Assembly (NCBI GenBank): GCA_029260215.1
Contig: JAJDDQ010000051.1
Coordinates: 62,001 to 126,000, forward strand
Reading direction: 5' to 3'
Length of the DNA: 64,000 bases
Source: Phycisphaerae bacterium
GTDB lineage: Bacteria > Planctomycetota > Phycisphaerae > UBA1845
Below, piece by piece: positions 3,224 to 49,838 of this stretch; the first letter of the stretch is position 1; the number at the start of each line of letters is the position of its first letter. The position numbers and the translations under genes are program-made. Under the pieces are notes generated by a model, which saw only the letters and a program-made list of their open reading frames with translations, made no database searches and was not told the origin of the DNA.

Positions 3224-3416
3224 GTAACAGGTCAGCAATCTGCAATCGTGATGTTTCGGTATGAAGGCGTGCTGGTTGAGAATGGTGCTGGATGGGTCCG
3301 GGGGCGTCCGCGCGGACTAAAGTCCGCGGCTCGTGGGGTGCCTTCGAAAATTGTGTAGAATACGGGCGAACGCGGTCCTCGAAGTGGATCAGCATTGCAC
3401 ACGGCTGACTTGTTAC
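3224..3416 (+). repeat. 193-bp dispersed element A, copy 1, with terminal inverted repeats
   Basis: About 80% identical by eye along its whole length to 10161-10352. It starts GTAACAGGTCAGC and ends GCTGACTTGTTAC; the reverse complement of the end matches the start at 12 of 13 bases. It contains a perfect hairpin, CGCGGACT-AA-AGTCCGCG (3311-3328). It fills most of the gap between the oxoprolinase gene and prfB, ending 22 bases before the prfB start. The ends and size suggest a small non-autonomous mobile element. No target duplication is evident. Confidence 0.75.
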
Positions 3417-4724: not shown

Positions 4725-4752
4725 CGTGTCGCACGCGACACGGCTAAGCGGG
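4725..4752 (+). repeat. 28-bp palindromic repeat D, copy 1
   Basis: Identical over 28 bases to 15724-15751. The first 18 bases form a palindrome, CGTGTCGC-AC-GCGACACG, followed by GGCTAAGCGGG. It lies in the 225-bp gap between the convergent ends of prfB and mfd, where the hairpin could also act as a transcription stop; no T run follows. Nothing else is recognisable in this gap. Confidence 0.7.
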
Positions 4753-11933: not shown

Positions 11934-12785
11934 TCAGTCTGCGTCCGAGTTTGGCGAAACGGCGTCTGGAAAGAACCGTTGTCCCATAAGGAAGATTGCC
12001 AGGAGCGGGATTGTGGAGATGACGGTGGCGGCCATGAGCAGATTGATCCACGTGCCGGCGAGGGTCTGGTACATGCGAAGCCCGAGGGAGACGGGGAAGG
12101 TGTTGAAGTCTGACAGGTACATCAAGGGTCCGAAAAAAAATCGCCAGTGGAGCATGAAACTGAGCGAGGCGGCTGTGACGACGACGGGGCGGGCGGTGGG
12201 CATCATGACGTATCGGTAGCACTGCCACGGCGAGGCACCGTCGAGTTCGGCGGCTTCGGCGAGCGGTTTGGGGATTGATTTGAAGAATTGGCGGAAGAGG
12301 AAGATGTTGAACGCGCCGCCGCCGAGCCACGCGGGCACGATCAGGGGTTTGTATGTGCCGATCCAGCCGAGTGCGTCGAAGAGCATGAATTGCGGGATGA
12401 AGAGGATTTGGGACGGGAGGATCAACGTCGCGATCAGTGCGGTGAACCAGAGGCGCCGGTAGGGCAGGTTCAGGTTCGCGAGGGCGTAGCCGGCCATCGA
12501 CGACGTGAGGACTGCGCCGAAGGCGGCTGTTGTGCTGATGAGGGTGGAGTTGACCATGAATCGGGCGAAGGGCAGGGTGCGGAATACTTCGACGTAGTTC
12601 GTCCAGCGAGGTTGCGACGGCAGGAGTGGTGCGTTGGCGTCGTAAACGCGCTCGAGCGGTTGGAGCGAGGTCAGCAGGCAGGCGATGAGCGGCAGGGCGA
12701 ACAGCGTCGCCACCACGCACAGGGCGGTATAGGTTAGCACTGTGCGCCATGATCGGTTTGGTTTTGTGTTGACTTCAATTTTCAT
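11934..12785 (-). CDS. Carbohydrate ABC transporter permease (MalG-like)
   Basis: Inner-membrane subunit of a CUT1-type sugar importer. The 283-residue sequence has about six hydrophobic segments and the cytoplasmic EAA loop (EAAELDGASPWQCYRYVMMP) that docks on the ATPase. It is the last gene of a leftward operon after a MalF-like permease and a binding protein; repeat B lies in the gap before it. No MalK-type ATPase is encoded nearby, so a shared ATPase from elsewhere in the genome is presumed. The transported sugar is unknown. Confidence 0.88.
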   Translation of the reverse strand: MKIEVNTKPNRSWRTVLTYTALCVVATLFALPLIACLLTSLQPLERVYDANAPLLPSQPRWTNYVEVFRTLPFARFMVNSTLISTTAAFGAVLTSSMAGYALANLNLPYRRLWFTALIATLILPSQILFIPQFMLFDALGWIGTYKPLIVPAWLGGGAFNIFLFRQFFKSIPKPLAEAAELDGASPWQCYRYVMMPTARPVVVTAASLSFMLHWRFFFGPLMYLSDFNTFPVSLGLRMYQTLAGTWINLLMAATVISTIPLLAIFLMGQRFFPDAVSPNSDAD

Positions 12786-12845
12786 GTTGCGTGCATGGAG
12801 TAATTCGACAGTTTTGTGGGGAAACGGTTTTCTGCGGAAGAGCAG

Positions 12846-12873
12846 ACCGCTCCCTTACGGTCACGGCTCTGAT
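12846..12873 (+). repeat. Dispersed palindromic repeat B, copy 1
   Basis: Reads ACCGCTCCCTTACGGTC then ACGGCTCTGAT, differing from 14841-14868 at two positions. It can fold with GACCG pairing to CGGTC around an 8-base loop. It lies in the 108-bp gap between the two permease genes. Confidence 0.65.
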
Positions 12874-12893
12874 AGGGAGTTTCGGACAGGTTC

Positions 12894-13877
12894 TTAGTAA
12901 ATTGGTGCATGTTGTGATTGCGATACGTAATAGATTCGCTTGCGCGTGAAGACGAATAATGAGCCGGCGGTGATCGCCAGAATGCAGAATAGAATCCAAC
13001 AGAGTGCGGCTGCGTAGCCCATGCGGTAGGGCGCGTCGAACGCGGTTCGGTAGACGTTAAGCATGTAGAACAGCAGGCCGTCGCGTTGGGAGCGGTTGTA
13101 GAGCAGGTAGCTTTGGTCGAAGGCCTGCATGGCGAATACCCATCCGACGATAAGGTTGAAGAGAATAGCCGGCGAAAGATGCACGAGGGTCACGTGTCGG
13201 AAGCGTGAGGCTGTTCCCGCGCCGTCGAGTCGGGCTGCTTCGTGCAGCGAGCGGGGGATGCGTTGCAGTGCTGCCAGGAAAACGAGCATGCTCCCGCCGC
13301 CGAGCCAGAGATGCAGCAGAACGAGTGCGGGCTTGCAGGCTGTGGGGGAATAGAGCCAATCGGGTGTGGGCCAATCGGTGGTGCCGGTCGTGTTTACGAT
13401 CCTGACGACGGGGTCAAGCACGGCGTAGGCCAGGTTCATGCAGCGGTTCATCAGGCCGAAGCGCGGATTGAATATCCAGCCGGCGATCATGATGGTGGCG
13501 ACTCCGCCGAGCATGTAGGGGAGCATCAGGATTGTTCGGAAGATTCGGATGCCGCGGAGGCGTGCGTTGGCCAACAGGGCGAGTGCGAGGGAGACGATCA
13601 GTCCGAGGGGAACCGCCAGAGCGGAGTAGACGAGGCTGTTGGTGAGGGATTTTGTGAATTCGTCGTCCAATTCGTGATAGTTGGCTGTCCCGACCCACTC
13701 GATGCCGTCGCTGAAAGACAGCCCGTCCCAGCGTGTGAACGAGAGTATCAGCGATGCGAACATGGGTCCGATTGAGAGGATCACCAATCCCGCAAGCCAC
13801 GGGGCGGCGAAGAGCAGGGCGTGCCGCTTACGGCTGTGCGGTTCGGGCTTCGTTGGTCGGCGTTTTGAAGCGATCAT
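12894..13877 (-). CDS. Carbohydrate ABC transporter permease (MalF-like)
   Basis: Partner permease of the MalG-like protein. The 327-residue sequence has a basic N-terminus, six or more membrane segments and an EAA loop (HEAARLDGAGTASRFRHVTL). Its ATG overlaps the stop of the upstream binding-protein gene as ATGA (13874-13877), so translation is coupled. The periplasmic stretch between residues 140 and 200 is longer than usual for the family. Confidence 0.88.
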   Translation of the reverse strand: MIASKRRPTKPEPHSRKRHALLFAAPWLAGLVILSIGPMFASLILSFTRWDGLSFSDGIEWVGTANYHELDDEFTKSLTNSLVYSALAVPLGLIVSLALALLANARLRGIRIFRTILMLPYMLGGVATIMIAGWIFNPRFGLMNRCMNLAYAVLDPVVRIVNTTGTTDWPTPDWLYSPTACKPALVLLHLWLGGGSMLVFLAALQRIPRSLHEAARLDGAGTASRFRHVTLVHLSPAILFNLIVGWVFAMQAFDQSYLLYNRSQRDGLLFYMLNVYRTAFDAPYRMGYAAALCWILFCILAITAGSLFVFTRKRIYYVSQSQHAPIY

Positions 13878-15346
13878 GGTTCAAACGACTCGCGAATTGC
13901 GTCATCTTCGGCCAATGCGCCGAGAAATGCGTGGGCGTCTACGTGTTCCGGTTCTCCGATCCATTTTTCGAGGTGTCTCCCGATGGCACGGTCGACACGG
14001 ACGAACTCAGGCCAATCCGGTTGAAGGCGCGCGTAGCTCAGGGCGGTGATGAACGATGTTCTTCGATCGTCGGTTGGTTGACCGAGAAACTCCGGCAGTG
14101 ATTCGTTTAGCGCGGGGAGTGCTCGGCCGGTGCGCGCGATGATTCCCTGGGCCTCTGATGAGAGGCAGAAACGCACGAATGCCCGCGCGTTGCGTTGAGC
14201 AGCCTGACCTCGCGTGCCGCTGATGCACAGGCCGTCCCACGTGATGCGTGTTGCCCGGATTCCGTTCGGGCCTGTGGGGATGGTCATGACGATGTAGCGA
14301 TCTCGCAAGCGTGTTTTGGCGAGGAACGGCTGAAACCAGGGGCCGTTGACGCACATGCCGACTTTTCCGGAGAGGAATCCGACGTCCTGAATGATTTGCG
14401 GTAAGTCTGACGGCTTCGGGCACACGCGGCGTGTGGCGGCTAACTCGCGGTAGAAGTCGAAGGCGTGTTCGGCGTTGGGGCCGATCAGTTGCCATGTTGT
14501 TGTGGCGTCGTTGGTGAGTCGCGCGTCGAAGGACCAGATGAATGGTATGTAGTACAGCCATCGCGGTCGCCAGAATCCGAAACGGTCGAGTCGGCCGTCG
14601 TTGTTTTCGTCGTAGGTCATGGCCTCCGCCAACTGTTGAAAGTCGGTCATGGTCCAGTCGTCGGGGGGTGACGGGTTGAGGATTCGTCCTCGGCGGACGG
14701 CTTCTTCGTAGCAGTCGAGGTTGAGGTAGATCAGGAGGTTTCCGCCGGAGACGGGCAGGGCGTGGAGTGTGTTGTCGCGTGTATGGGGGGTTTCTTGCGC
14801 GTTGGGTTTGTTTGGCGTTGGTTTTCTTTTACTTGCGAAACCGCTCCCTGACGGTCGCGGCTCTGATTGGTTTGTTGTGTGCGTTGGCGCTCTCTTGCTT
14901 TTTTCGCTTTTGAATTGAAAGGCTTGGATCGCGGTTGGTGCGAAGTTTTCGAGTCCGATTGCATCGGCCAAGTCGTCGATGGGTTGAAAGTGGGGGGCGA
15001 GTCTGCGGTAGGGTGCCAATTGCATGAGGACTATGTCGGGCAGTGTTTTGGAGAGAATCTGCCGGCGGATTTTCGAATCGTATCGGCCGTACCATCCGGG
15101 GATGAATTCCTGTTTGATGGTGATTGTCGGGTTCGCGGTTTCGAATGCGTCGATGAGTTTCCGCCAGAGGGTGTAGTCCTCGTGGCTGCCGAAATGTGCG
15201 AAGCGGATTTGGTTAGGATTTTCAGTGGGCCTGTAGCGGGCGATGGTGTCCGCGAACAGCCACCAAGTCGCGGCGGCGATCAGGATGAGTTGGGCGGTTC
15301 GCCGCAGCACGGGGATCAGTTTTCGAGAACCTCGATGCGCGTGCAT
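13874..15346 (-). CDS. Extracellular sugar-binding protein of an ABC transporter, with a repeat-derived insertion
   Basis: Type 1 solute-binding protein that should capture a sugar for the downstream permeases. The N-terminus has one hydrophobic helix (residues 15-32) without a lipobox cysteine, suggesting an uncleaved anchor. Family features include FETANPTITIKQEF, the hinge region HALPVSGGNLLIYLNLDCYEEAV, and GKVGMCVNGPWF. Between the normal ...PTAIQAFQF and NTLHALPV there is an extra segment of about 45 residues (146-190), rich in K, P, S and T, encoded by 14777-14911. That segment contains repeat B copy 2 in frame. The start overlaps the end of the small upstream gene by 31 bases. Confidence 0.85.
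   Translation of the reverse strand: MHAHRGSRKLIPVLRRTAQLILIAAATWWLFADTIARYRPTENPNQIRFAHFGSHEDYTLWRKLIDAFETANPTITIKQEFIPGWYGRYDSKIRRQILSKTLPDIVLMQLAPYRRLAPHFQPIDDLADAIGLENFAPTAIQAFQFKSEKSKRAPTHTTNQSEPRPSGSGFASKRKPTPNKPNAQETPHTRDNTLHALPVSGGNLLIYLNLDCYEEAVRRGRILNPSPPDDWTMTDFQQLAEAMTYDENNDGRLDRFGFWRPRWLYYIPFIWSFDARLTNDATTTWQLIGPNAEHAFDFYRELAATRRVCPKPSDLPQIIQDVGFLSGKVGMCVNGPWFQPFLAKTRLRDRYIVMTIPTGPNGIRATRITWDGLCISGTRGQAAQRNARAFVRFCLSSEAQGIIARTGRALPALNESLPEFLGQPTDDRRTSFITALSYARLQPDWPEFVRVDRAIGRHLEKWIGEPEHVDAHAFLGALAEDDAIRESFEP
14841..14868 (+). repeat. Dispersed palindromic repeat B, copy 2, inside a coding sequence
   Basis: Same 28-base unit as 12846-12873 with G for T at the loop and G for A in the distal part. 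It lies in frame within the ABC binding-protein gene and is translated from the minus strand as NQSEPRPSGSGF. The wider foreign segment is about 14777-14911. Confidence 0.75.
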
Positions 15347-15723: not shown

Positions 15724-15751
15724 CGTGTCGCACGCGACACGGCTAAGCGGG
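15724..15751 (+). repeat. 28-bp palindromic repeat D, copy 2
   Basis: Identical over 28 bases to 4725-4752, with a similar GGGTTTGGGA-type lead-in. The palindromic part is CGTGTCGC-AC-GCGACACG. Confidence 0.7.
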
Positions 15752-15813: not shown

Positions 15814-15856
15814 AAGAACCCCCCTCGATCCCCCCTTTGCAAGGGGGGAAGGAAGT
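15814..15856 (+). repeat. 43-bp palindromic repeat C, copy 1
   Basis: Nearly identical to 23192-23234. The core is CCCCCCTTTGCAAGGGGGG, a perfect inverted repeat around TGCA, preceded by AAGAACCCCCCTCGAT. An inverted, shorter copy lies inside alaS at 47041-47070. Confidence 0.8.
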
Positions 15857-23191: not shown

Positions 23192-23234
23192 AAGAACCCC
23201 CCTCGATCCCCCCTTTGCAAGGGGGGAAGAAAGT
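23192..23234 (+). repeat. 43-bp palindromic repeat C, copy 2
   Basis: Nearly identical to 15814-15856, with the inverted repeat CCCCCCTTTGCAAGGGGGG. It lies between the second zinc-ribbon gene and the Nudix gene; the rest of that 170-bp gap shows nothing recognisable. Confidence 0.8.
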
Positions 23235-46375: not shown

Positions 46376-49300
46376 CTACCCGCCGATTTTCTCTTTGATC
46401 CATTCAGCTGCGCGCTGCAGCGCCGTTTCGATGCCGTCGGCGTTGGTCCCACCGCCCTGGGCCATGTCCGGGCGACCGCCGCCTCTGCCGCCGACCAGCG
46501 GAGCGATTTCCTTGATGACGTCGCCCGCTTTGACGCCCATCTTGTTGACATCCTTGCTCATGCCGGCCAGCAGCGTGACCTTGCCTTCGTCGTCGCGACA
46601 GGCGAGCACCACAGCCGTCGAGTCGGCTTTTTGACGGAACCAGTCGATCGCGCCGCGGAGTGCGTCGGCTTTGGCGGAGGGTACTTCGCCGACGATGACC
46701 TTCACGCCGCCGACGGTTTCCGCCTGTTCCAGAAGCTTGGCTGACGTGTCGAGGACCGCATCGGCGCTGGCGCCAGCGGCTTGCTTGTTGAGTTCTTTGA
46801 GCGTTTTCTGAATTTCGGTCACGACTTCGCGGATGTCGTTTCGAACCGTGACGGGGATGACAGCCTCAGTCAGGCGGGATTGGAGGTCGGCGAGTTTGGT
46901 AGCGAGGTTTGCGCCGGTTCCCTGCTCCGCTTCCTTCGTGCTCCCGCATTGGTCGCTCTCAGGGTCGCGGCTCTGATCGGTTTCTCCCGTCGACGCGCGC
47001 GTTCCGTCTTCCTCCGCCGTCGGAGGTTCTTGATTCTCTCCCCCCCTTGCAAAGGGGGGGCTGGGGGGGGTCCGACCGGCGAGACCGCATGCTTCGGCCA
47101 GAAACTCATAGCCCAGCCGTCGCGCGTCGCGGGCGGCGTCACCGGTGATGCCGACGAGCCGACGCACGCCCTTGGCCACCGCTTCCTCGCTGGTCAGAAC
47201 GAAGTCGCCGATGTCCCTGGTGTTGGCTACGTGCGTCCCACCGCAGAATTCGACGGAGTATTTCATCCACTCGTCGTTCTTCGGGTCTTTCAATATCTCA
47301 TCGATGTCGGCCCCTACGGAGACGACACGCACGCGATCGGGATACTTCTCGCCGAATACAGCCCGCAACGTGTTGATCTCGCGGGCGGCGGATTGCTCGA
47401 CTTCTTTGGTGTACACCGTTTGACTTGTCGCGATCTGCTCTGCGCAAAGCGCTTCGATTCGGGCCAACTCGTCCGCCGTCACGGGCTTGTTGTGCGAAAA
47501 ATCGAATCGCGTCTTTTCGGGATCGACGAGTGAACCCTTCTGCTGGACGTGATCGCCAAGCAGGTTCCTCAACGCAAGGTTTAGAATGTGCGTGGAGGTG
47601 TGGTTGAATGTGATCTTGTCGCGTCGAGCACGGTCGACACGCATTCGAACCTCCAATCCCGAATTAATTGTACCCCGACGCACGGTGCCTCGATGAAGTA
47701 TTTGTTGCCCGCGTTTCTCCACTGCATATATGTCGACGATATCACCTTTTTCGGTTTCCAGAACACCGGTGTCAGAAACCTGGCCGCCTTGTTCTGCGTA
47801 GAAAGGCGTTCTATTTGTACCGACCGTAACATGCTCGCCTTCCTTGGCCGAATCGGAGTCGAACAGCTTTACCATGCGCGCACCAATCGAATGCAAGAAT
47901 GCTCCGCATTCGAATGGTGCGACATATTTGAGAGAATCATCACAGGTCTTACCGCCTGTGAGGTTTCGATAGGTATCTTCGTCGAACGCGTCATCAAGAT
48001 TCCGCGTAATGCCCCGCGCCTTTTCGCGAGCTTCGTCCATCAACCGCTCGTACTCCCCAATATCCACCTTCATCCCGCGTTCTTCTGCCATCAGTTCGGT
48101 CAAGTCGATGGGGAAGCCGTAGGTGTCGTGGAGTTTGAAAGCGTCTTCGCCGCTGATGCGTCCGTGGTGATGAGTCTCGGCGTACTTGGCTGCGTCGTTG
48201 AATAATTTGATCCCGCGGTCCAGCGTCTTGAGGAATGACGCCTCCTCATCTCGCAGAATCTCGGCGACGTATTGGACATTGTCGCGGGTGTGCTGCGGGT
48301 TGGGACCGGTCTTGAGTTCCGGGAAGAAGTCGCCCATCTGCTCAACGACGGATGGGACGAGGTCGCAGAGGAAGGGCTCGTGCATGTCGAAGTACTGTCT
48401 GCCGTAGCGCACTGCGCGGCGAAGAATGCGACGCAGGACGTACCCTCTGCCCTCGTTGGAGGGCATCGCGCCGTCGGTTATGGCGAAGGTCAAACAACGC
48501 AGGTGGTCCGCGATGACGCGGTAGGTCACGTCGGACTTGATTTGAGCGTCGGGAGCGTCGTCGCCCGGCAACGTTCTCTTGTAGTCGATCGCACTACAGC
48601 GTTTTTGAATAGCCGCGAAGAGCGTTGTGAATACATCGGTGTCGTAATTGCTGAATTGACACAGGCGATCATGCTGCATGCCCTGAAGGACAGAGCAGAT
48701 ACGTTCAAAACCCATGCCCGTATCGACGTGTTGAGACGGCAGCGGCGTGAGTGTGCCGTCCGGGCTTCGGTTGAACTGAATAAAAACGAGGTTCCACAGT
48801 TCGATGGCCCGCGCGTCGCCGGCGTTCACGAGCTTTGCGCCCGACTTGTCCGGCGTCAGGTCGATGTGGATTTCACTGCAAGGCCCACAAGGCCCCGTGT
48901 CGCCCATTTCCCAGAAGTTATCCTTCTTGTTGCCGGGGTGGACGCGCTCGGGCGGAAGATGCTGTAGCCACAGGTCGCGAGCTTCGTGGTCAGGGTCCAG
49001 ACCCTCAGTCGCGTCGCCTTCGAAATACGTCGCGTGCAGCCGCGTGGGGTCGATTTTCCACAGGCCGGTCATGAGTTCCCACGCCCAGTCGATGGCCTCC
49101 TTCTTGAAATAATCGCCGAAGGACCAGTTGCCGAGCATCTCGAAAAACGTGTGGTGGTAGGTGTCTTGCCCGACATCGTCGAGGTCGTTGTGCTTGCCGC
49201 CGGCTCGGATGCATTTCTGAGTGTTGGCTGCCCGACGGACCGCTGGCGTTTCGGTGCCCAGAAAATAGGGCTTGAACTGGTTCATGCCCGCGTTTGTGAA

Positions 49301-49408
49301 CATGAGCGTGGGGTCGTCGTGGGGGACGACGGGCGACGACGGCACGAAGGCGTGCCCCTTGCCCTTGAAGAATTCGATGAATTGTTGGCGTATTTCGCGT
49401 GATGTCAT
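46376..49408 (-). CDS. alaS: Alanyl-tRNA synthetase with a repeat-derived insertion
   Basis: Charges tRNA-Ala and edits mischarged Ser/Gly. 1010 residues from ATG 49408 (MTSREIRQQFIEFFKGKGH), longer than the usual ~875. The class II core has RAGGKHNDLDDVGQDTYHH and GDTGPCGPCSEIH. The editing domain has HTSTHILNLAL near 605 and CGGTHVANTRD near 725, so the four metal ligands are kept. The C-Ala domain ends with GGRGGGRPDMAQGGG. Between the editing domain and the coiled coil, residues ~777-829 are a foreign segment (GRTPPSPPFARGGENQEPP... QSRDPESDQCGS) made of repeats C and B in frame. The open frame before 49408 is not coding. Confidence 0.95.
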   Translation of the reverse strand: MTSREIRQQFIEFFKGKGHAFVPSSPVVPHDDPTLMFTNAGMNQFKPYFLGTETPAVRRAANTQKCIRAGGKHNDLDDVGQDTYHHTFFEMLGNWSFGDYFKKEAIDWAWELMTGLWKIDPTRLHATYFEGDATEGLDPDHEARDLWLQHLPPERVHPGNKKDNFWEMGDTGPCGPCSEIHIDLTPDKSGAKLVNAGDARAIELWNLVFIQFNRSPDGTLTPLPSQHVDTGMGFERICSVLQGMQHDRLCQFSNYDTDVFTTLFAAIQKRCSAIDYKRTLPGDDAPDAQIKSDVTYRVIADHLRCLTFAITDGAMPSNEGRGYVLRRILRRAVRYGRQYFDMHEPFLCDLVPSVVEQMGDFFPELKTGPNPQHTRDNVQYVAEILRDEEASFLKTLDRGIKLFNDAAKYAETHHHGRISGEDAFKLHDTYGFPIDLTELMAEERGMKVDIGEYERLMDEAREKARGITRNLDDAFDEDTYRNLTGGKTCDDSLKYVAPFECGAFLHSIGARMVKLFDSDSAKEGEHVTVGTNRTPFYAEQGGQVSDTGVLETEKGDIVDIYAVEKRGQQILHRGTVRRGTINSGLEVRMRVDRARRDKITFNHTSTHILNLALRNLLGDHVQQKGSLVDPEKTRFDFSHNKPVTADELARIEALCAEQIATSQTVYTKEVEQSAAREINTLRAVFGEKYPDRVRVVSVGADIDEILKDPKNDEWMKYSVEFCGGTHVANTRDIGDFVLTSEEAVAKGVRRLVGITGDAARDARRLGYEFLAEACGLAGRTPPSPPFARGGENQEPPTAEEDGTRASTGETDQSRDPESDQCGSTKEAEQGTGANLATKLADLQSRLTEAVIPVTVRNDIREVVTEIQKTLKELNKQAAGASADAVLDTSAKLLEQAETVGGVKVIVGEVPSAKADALRGAIDWFRQKADSTAVVLACRDDEGKVTLLAGMSKDVNKMGVKAGDVIKEIAPLVGGRGGGRPDMAQGGGTNADGIETALQRAAEWIKEKIGG
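46951..46977 (+). repeat. Dispersed repeat B, copy 3 (diverged), inside alaS
   Basis: GGTCGCTCTCAGGGTC then GCGGCTCTGAT; the second half is identical to the copy at 14841-14868, the first half diverged. Translated from the minus strand in a different frame from the copy in the ABC binding protein. Confidence 0.6.
47041..47070 (-). repeat. Palindromic repeat C, copy 3, inside alaS
   Basis: On the coding (minus) strand it reads CCCCCCCTTTGCAAGGGGGG preceded by a C-rich arm, the same orientation and core as 15814-15856. Translated as TPPSPPFARGG. Confidence 0.72.
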
Positions 49409-49429
49409 GGTGCGCTCGTCAAAACTCTT

Positions 49430-49460
49430 GCGTCCGCGCGAGCTGAAGCTCGCGGCTCGT
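49430..49460 (+). repeat. Core hairpin of element A, isolated copy
   Basis: GCGTCCG-CGCGAGCT-GA-AGCTCGCG-GCTCGT corresponds to the core of element A (3304-3334), but two stem positions have changed on both arms, so the pairing is kept. It lies just upstream of alaS in a 193-bp gap; the remainder of the gap shows nothing recognisable. Confidence 0.6.
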
Positions 49461-49601
49461 TGTTTGGGGAGCAAAATCGCTCCGAATTCCCTTTGTGCGA
49501 AAGGGTAACGCGAAATGCGCTGCGAACCAAATCGGACCCGTATCGGGTGAACCCGCATCGGGCAGGGGCATGTCAGGGAGTGGGGGGGCAAACGCCCGGA
49601 A

Positions 49602-49838
49602 TCAGACGAGCAGCGTGTAAACGACCCACAGCCCCACACCGACGGCGTACATGCCGACGACGATGGTGACCCAGAGGTTGAGCACCGCCCGGATCATGTG
49701 GCGAAGGTTTTCGAGGCGCGTAACTTTGTACACGATGGCGATGCTCAGGCAGATCGGCAGGATCAGCACAGCCTTCTGCAACCCGCCGAGGGCGATGGGC
49801 GTGACGAAAAACTGAGCGATTAGCGAAGAGACCGTCAT
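49602..49838 (-). CDS. Small two- to three-helix membrane protein
   Basis: A 78-residue hydrophobic protein, MTVSSLIAQFFVTPIALGG..., with helices near residues 20-38 and 55-77 separated by a basic loop (KVTRLENLRHMIR). Its ATG shares one base with the stop of the preceding gene (TAATG at 49838), so translation is coupled. The role is unknown; likely works with the preceding membrane protein. Confidence 0.8.
   Translation of the reverse strand: MTVSSLIAQFFVTPIALGGLQKAVLILPICLSIAIVYKVTRLENLRHMIRAVLNLWVTIVVGMYAVGVGLWVVYTLLV

Follow-up and report, generated by a model that had tools for sequence, protein, structure and literature searches.

A 45-codon segment inside the gene for an ABC sugar-type solute-binding protein (SBP) of a Phycisphaerae bacterium is best explained as a lineage-specific loop insertion that stands in frame, carries a single REP with a CnGA foot, was spread by TnpA-Y1 activity and is tolerated by its host protein, a reading to which we would give a probability of about 0.8. 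The gene belongs to a stretch of 64,000 nucleotides, here called the window, in which the following features surround the insert:

11934..12785, minus strand: permease gene of ABC sugar type, from its open reading frame and gene order, with the family read from the sequence
12847..12871, minus strand: second F1 REP copy, an exact core match, lying in the intergenic gap 12786-12893 that separates the two permease genes
12894..13877, minus strand: permease gene of ABC sugar type, adjoining the SBP gene and assigned in the same way
13874..15346, minus strand: SBP gene, 490 aa with an N-terminal hydrophobic helix, the first of an SBP-permease-permease set
14777..14911, minus strand: in-frame 45-codon lineage-specific insertion at the AFQF/DNTLHALPV turn
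14841..14865, minus strand: REP core of subfamily F1 in the insert, 5'-CAGAG-CCGC-GACC-GTCA-GGGA-GCGG-3', read as ..SEPRPSGSG..
14861..14865, minus strand: 5' foot CAGA(G), which fits CnGA in the survey with a CnGA-anchored pattern

The SBP matches Pfam SBP_bac_8 at 1.1e-15 in a profile search, and its top Foldseek matches are MalE-type sugar-binding proteins and their relatives. The insert peptide, KSEKSK...PHTR, comprises 45 residues between AFQF and DNTLHALPV, which correspond exactly to nucleotides 14777-14911, so that the original prediction of 45 extra residues between AFQF and NTLHALPV was precise in its coordinates. No Pfam domain was found in the insert by profile search. A search for orthologues in 51 genomes from this family gave a match in 31, and in each of the 26 orthologues that were aligned only one to five residues stand opposite the 46 query residues 146-191. 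The segment is hence present in one of 27 genomes (the query and the 26 orthologues), which makes the insertion specific to the lineage of the window genome, and a homologous, conserved segment lacking the repeat was not found in this comparison. The AlphaFold2 model of the SBP, built from 25 aligned sequences, has a mean pLDDT of 87.9 and reaches about 90 outside the insert, whereas residues 153-189 fall almost entirely under 50 and are flanked by the strands 144-146 and 192-194. The insert is thereby predicted to be a disordered surface loop at the tip of a beta-hairpin, in keeping with the surface loop that had been proposed for checking by structure prediction, and as modelled such a loop is a natural place for an insert to be tolerated. 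Separately, an SBP orthologue from another genus (L097, genome G007) has a G/C-rich palindromic insertion in a neighbouring loop.

It is very unlikely that the SBP gene is decaying and that the insert is a pseudogene lesion. The unusual residues do occur in one copy only, but the open reading frame is full length with a two-sided coding signal, the fold outside the insert is modelled with high confidence, and the protein retains 39-55% identity to its orthologues with the conserved residues kept.

The REP core at 14841-14865 of the SBP insert is CCGCTCCCTGACGGTCGCGGCTCTG. Within the window the repeat core CCGCTCCCTNACGGTCRCGGCTC occurs with 0 mismatches at 12847-12869 and 14841-14863, where 0 are expected (100 shuffles), and the first of these copies, between the two permease genes, substantiates the claim that the repeat is also intergenic at 12846-12873. 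The window genome (4.97 Mb in 88 contigs) holds 92 core matches at <=3 mismatches and none to the reversed pattern, and a scan of retrieved genome regions gave 94 REP copies in three subfamilies, F1 (55), F2 (31) and F3 (8), nearly all of them single. Read from the opposite strand it is 5'-CAGAG CCGC GA CC GTNA GG GA GCGG, and in its consensus, CnGA-N-CCGC-GA-CC-GTNA-GG-GA-GCGG, a foot is followed by a stem of four pairs, an internal mismatch of G.A type and two inner pairs that close a loop of four bases. Like REPs in general, it is an imperfect palindrome of 20-40 nt with many dispersed copies. Beyond 25 nt several flank contexts can be told apart (A, B, C and others), and in one copy the left flank is of type B but the right flank of type A; from these varied and recombined contexts the conserved unit is taken to be 25 nt.

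By folding energy the stability of the hairpin is unremarkable (z -0.8), and because this makes folding energy weak evidence covariation was used instead. Among 73 distinct copies drawn from every retrieved locus, a set biased towards F1 since many loci were retrieved with the F1 pattern, 98.4% of cells are paired. The covariation score is 0.130, compared with 0.033 for shuffled copies, and none of 500 shuffles reaches it. The outer stem is fixed by the search pattern and is by itself uninformative; the inner pairs covary, as C-G/G-C and C-G/A-U/U-A/U-G, and the G.A is kept as the outermost mismatch in 69 of the 73 copies. A 22-nt pattern for the hairpin whose spacing was incorrect was discarded, as it gave background only (12 matches versus 11 in the control). 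The survey anchored on CnGA returned 393 copies with the feet CAGA (288), CCGA (73), CGGA (27) and CTGA (5), and its reversed-pattern control gave 0-1 per genome; the 94 copies of the window genome (G000), found without the CnGA anchor, likewise have a CAGA foot with few exceptions. The repeat is a REP-type hairpin with a 5' CnGA foot, which corresponds to the guide tetranucleotide that REPs carry 5' of the hairpin.

A codon-usage test of the 94 copies, which is not a full annotation, found a two-sided coding signal for only two, namely the copy in the SBP gene and another within an Fe-S protein of 719 aa, and the repeat thus lies mostly between genes. Long open reading frames that span further copies, such as C35:2798 and C67:17105, were rejected as genic, there being no Pfam match near the repeat. 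A third coding context within the window is partial:

46376..49639, minus strand: alaS open reading frame, 1087 aa, with a repeat-rich loop near residues 885-930
46958..46983, minus strand: degenerate F1 REP fragment inside alaS in another frame (QSRDPE), an 88% match over 26 nt

The original prediction had placed the same repeat in AlaS in another frame; the frame does differ, but what AlaS contains is a degraded piece of the repeat. Translation of the REP gives EPRPSGS for the SBP, QSRDREGA for the Fe-S protein (C33:129892) and QSRDPE for AlaS, and since the reading frames differ between host genes it is the DNA element that is conserved and not the peptide, as had been argued. These differing frames, and the lack of a Pfam domain at the sites, make a protein-level domain or motif common to the SBP, AlaS and others a negligible prospect, even though similar DNA does occur in several genes.

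If the variable base of the loop is a purine, the frame used in the SBP meets a stop codon there (TAA or TGA). This base is A or G in 54 of the 55 F1 copies and C only in the SBP copy, by which the frame is kept open. A loop base of C is what would be expected of a translated, maintained reading frame, and this codon is a direct reason to believe that the inserted DNA is translated. The same frame-opening base might be taken as a sign that the segment is under selection, either because it modifies the SBP or through a role of the hairpin in the part of the mRNA that links the SBP and permease genes, and effects of REPs on the stability of mRNA are described for other genera (PMC3733652). Purifying selection on the host protein is, however, sufficient to account for an open frame, and the segment is present in a single genome, is predicted to be disordered and yields peptides that differ between genes. 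The Fe-S protein speaks for this alternative, as its orthologue in G038, from another genus, carries a perfect REP at the equivalent loop and in an identical frame, an arrangement that reflects either one old insertion common to both or two separate ones. All in all, a selected function is improbable, and most likely the segment does nothing for the SBP and is merely tolerated. The Fe-S protein itself is heterodisulfide-reductase-like, and the one loop and frame are represented by L015:1501-1525 (G000 C33:129892) and L158.

The proposal that the SBP segment holds the repeat stands for one core copy, but of the insert's 135 bp the repeat accounts for no more than about 33. The other roughly 100 bp match no other copy, and BLAST matches of the insert are limited to about positions 36-86 of the 135-bp query. 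The insert is thus not simply a standard element as judged by its sequence. A kinship between the flanks of the insert and those of other copies was rejected, as 234 of 300 shuffles were as good, and no target-site signature could be read at the insert. The 135 bp may therefore represent either an element whose own flanks have since decayed or a REP that landed in an already grown linker. In the latter case the beta-turn would first have grown a low-complexity linker rich in K, P, S, T, N and Q, by slippage or another insertion, and a bare REP of 25-33 bp would have landed in it later. Such a two-step origin agrees with the observation that only the core matches other copies and with the Fe-S protein, whose REP adds about 9 residues in a loop already variable among relatives. 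Against it, none of the 26 aligned orthologues has the linker without the REP, and an apparent internal duplication around the core (SKRAPT/SKRKPT), which was itself rejected as a feature, is not significant, with 249 of 2000 shuffles as good. The two-step origin is a little short of an even chance; it concerns the unit of insertion only, is compatible with the identity of the REP, and its likelihood does not exclude that of the main reading.

For the insertion of a CnGA-foot REP into the SBP, the mechanism envisaged is that a TnpA-Y1 enzyme would have spread REP-bearing single-stranded DNA through the genome and that insertions into genes would mostly have been eliminated. The SBP copy would have survived because the frame was kept, no stop was introduced and the landing site was one where the fold tolerates a loop.

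The tie of the repeat to a transposase family goes beyond what the original prediction had read. The REP occurs in 37 of the 51 family genomes, with a maximum of 356 copies (G036), and a pattern search recovered the F1 core from named records of Phycisphaerae, Gemmataceae, Solibacter, Bryobacterales, Verrucomicrobiia and Deltaproteobacteria. By phylum, the MAGs with this core belong to Planctomycetota, Acidobacteria, Verrucomicrobia and Deltaproteobacteria, a distribution close to the class-3 phyla listed in PMC6006769. Class-3 tnpA genes flanked by the REP, with the motifs NHVH, then W, then Y....Q, are found in G040, G036, G013, G015, G034, G004, G002, G038 and G131. The window genome has four TnpA-Y1 genes, which NCBIfam assigns to REP-associated transposases (three below the curated cut-off); they belong to a different group, none being class 3 by motifs. 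A search of this draft, which is 97% complete, found no class-3 tnpA that closely resembles the REP-flanked genes, the best frame being 24% identical and having no adjoining REP. The copies of the window genome may be relics; alternatively, the genome may have lost the enzyme, or its gene may lie in an assembly gap. One RAYT-type gene of the window genome (L067:2576-3274, C34) has an F3 REP about 65 bp downstream, at 3340-3364, a link that is only suggestive, since it is a single instance when there are 94 copies and four genes. Tandem REPs with a 33-bp spacing, which is a multiple of three, are seen in L320 (G004 C230) and L321 (G004 C413), and those of L321 adjoin a class-3 tnpA.

The alaS genes of relatives are a more remarkable lead than the SBP insert. 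Class-3 TnpA is encoded in frame within alaS at two places, site 1 (TLP/QIMTDVSYRVIADH) in G034, G015, G036, G016 and G013, and site 2 (before VISGEDAF) in G040 and G009, at the following loci:

L307:950-3583 (G040, JAJDDS010000055.1), L340 (G009), L334 (G034) and L335 (G015): alaS-embedded class-3 TnpA
L336 (G036), L337 (G016) and L338 (G013): further alaS-embedded class-3 TnpA

The embedded TnpA is bracketed by the REP-derived peptides SRDRKEA and LPYGRGSV, and Pfam finds tRNA-synt_2c interrupted by Y1_Tnp within a single continuous open reading frame (four such frames scanned, that of G036 just under the curated cut-off). Each AlaS part was found once in G036, G009, G013 and G034, which are 94-97% complete, so the transposase-bearing alaS is the only alaS found there. 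The transposases at site 1 group together in a single, moderately supported clade (86/93; 88% of bootstrap trees), consistent, as far as the sequences go, with one insertion followed by vertical descent. By eye, the HUH motifs and a candidate tyrosine are retained in the embedded copies. Another TnpA-Y1 group is in frame in valS-type genes (L346 in G018, L347 in G012) and in an mmeI-type methylase gene (L345 in G014), with repeated peptides on both sides of the transposase in each; these cases, like those in alaS, come from draft assemblies, and some frames run to the end of the retrieved piece. No report of a transposase in frame within such host genes was found in the literature searched, which is not proof of novelty. 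The AlaS loop equivalent to window residues of about 885-930 has the REP peptides QSRDRKGA and QSSDRDGA in L360 (G036) and L367 (G038).

Two further repeats were noted in the window. A second palindromic repeat, CCCCCCTTTGCAAGGGGGG, lies at 15820-15851, 23198-23229 and 47041-47059, the first two sites being outside the studied genes and the last within alaS, in frame (TPPSPPFARGG). An exact 28-nt repeat, CGTGTCGCACGCGACACGGCTAAGCGGG, partly palindromic, is found at 4725-4752 and 15724-15751.

A broader idea, which is held tentatively and as somewhat against the odds, is that in this family of Phycisphaerae-type bacteria the coding sequence of the host serves CnGA REPs and their class-3 HUH transposase as a refuge. 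The alaS-embedded TnpA would be made as a host fusion and shielded because its imprecise loss would kill an essential gene, with related TnpA-Y1 in valS- and mmeI-type genes and the SBP loop as a minimal non-autonomous case. How an essential enzyme works with an internal transposase domain, and whether that transposase is still active, are testable questions.

With respect to known systems, the closest likeness is to the REPs associated with class-3 TnpA-Y1. A CnGA foot has been described for atypical repeats flanking class-3 TnpA-Y1 (HUH) genes in Planctomycetes, Acidobacteria and Proteobacteria, and about 600 copies of class-3-type repeats occur in Solibacter (PMC6006769). The present repeat shares with these the short imperfect hairpin, the 5' CnGA foot, the high copy number, the occurrence in Planctomycetes and Acidobacteria and, in relatives only, the flanking of class-3 tnpA. 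It differs in being found in frame inside genes and in that the copies of the window genome have no adjoining class-3 tnpA. Relatives have inverted pairs at a fixed spacing, as in REPINs or REP doublets, with starts 140 bp apart in G131 and a spacing of 45 bp in G036, whereas the window-genome copies stand alone and in several flank contexts. An intein was rejected, since the segment of 45 residues begins with K and is followed by D, in disagreement with both the splicing junctions and the length of inteins. The intragenic GTAG and CGTC REPs (PMC3733652) are similarly short palindromes that are mostly intergenic, with some encoding extra residues of open reading frames, but the feet here (CAGA/CCGA/CGGA/CTGA) are neither GTAG nor CGTC, which places the repeat outside those superfamilies, and the hairpin sequence is unrelated. 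Rickettsia palindromic elements (RPE; PMC3733652) are likewise palindromic repeats in frame in unrelated proteins, and an in-frame insertion absent from orthologues is what the SBP gene has. Compared by description, RPEs belong to another bacterial group and have a CGTC end that the conserved core here lacks. We read the insert, by analogy, as a tolerated in-frame REP akin in behaviour to the Rickettsia palindromic elements and not as a member of that family. Entry into protein-coding genes in frame, already known for GTAG/CGTC REPs and the Rickettsia elements, can thus be attributed also to the little-studied CnGA-foot class, and the in-frame CnGA REP adds to the known intragenic REPs.
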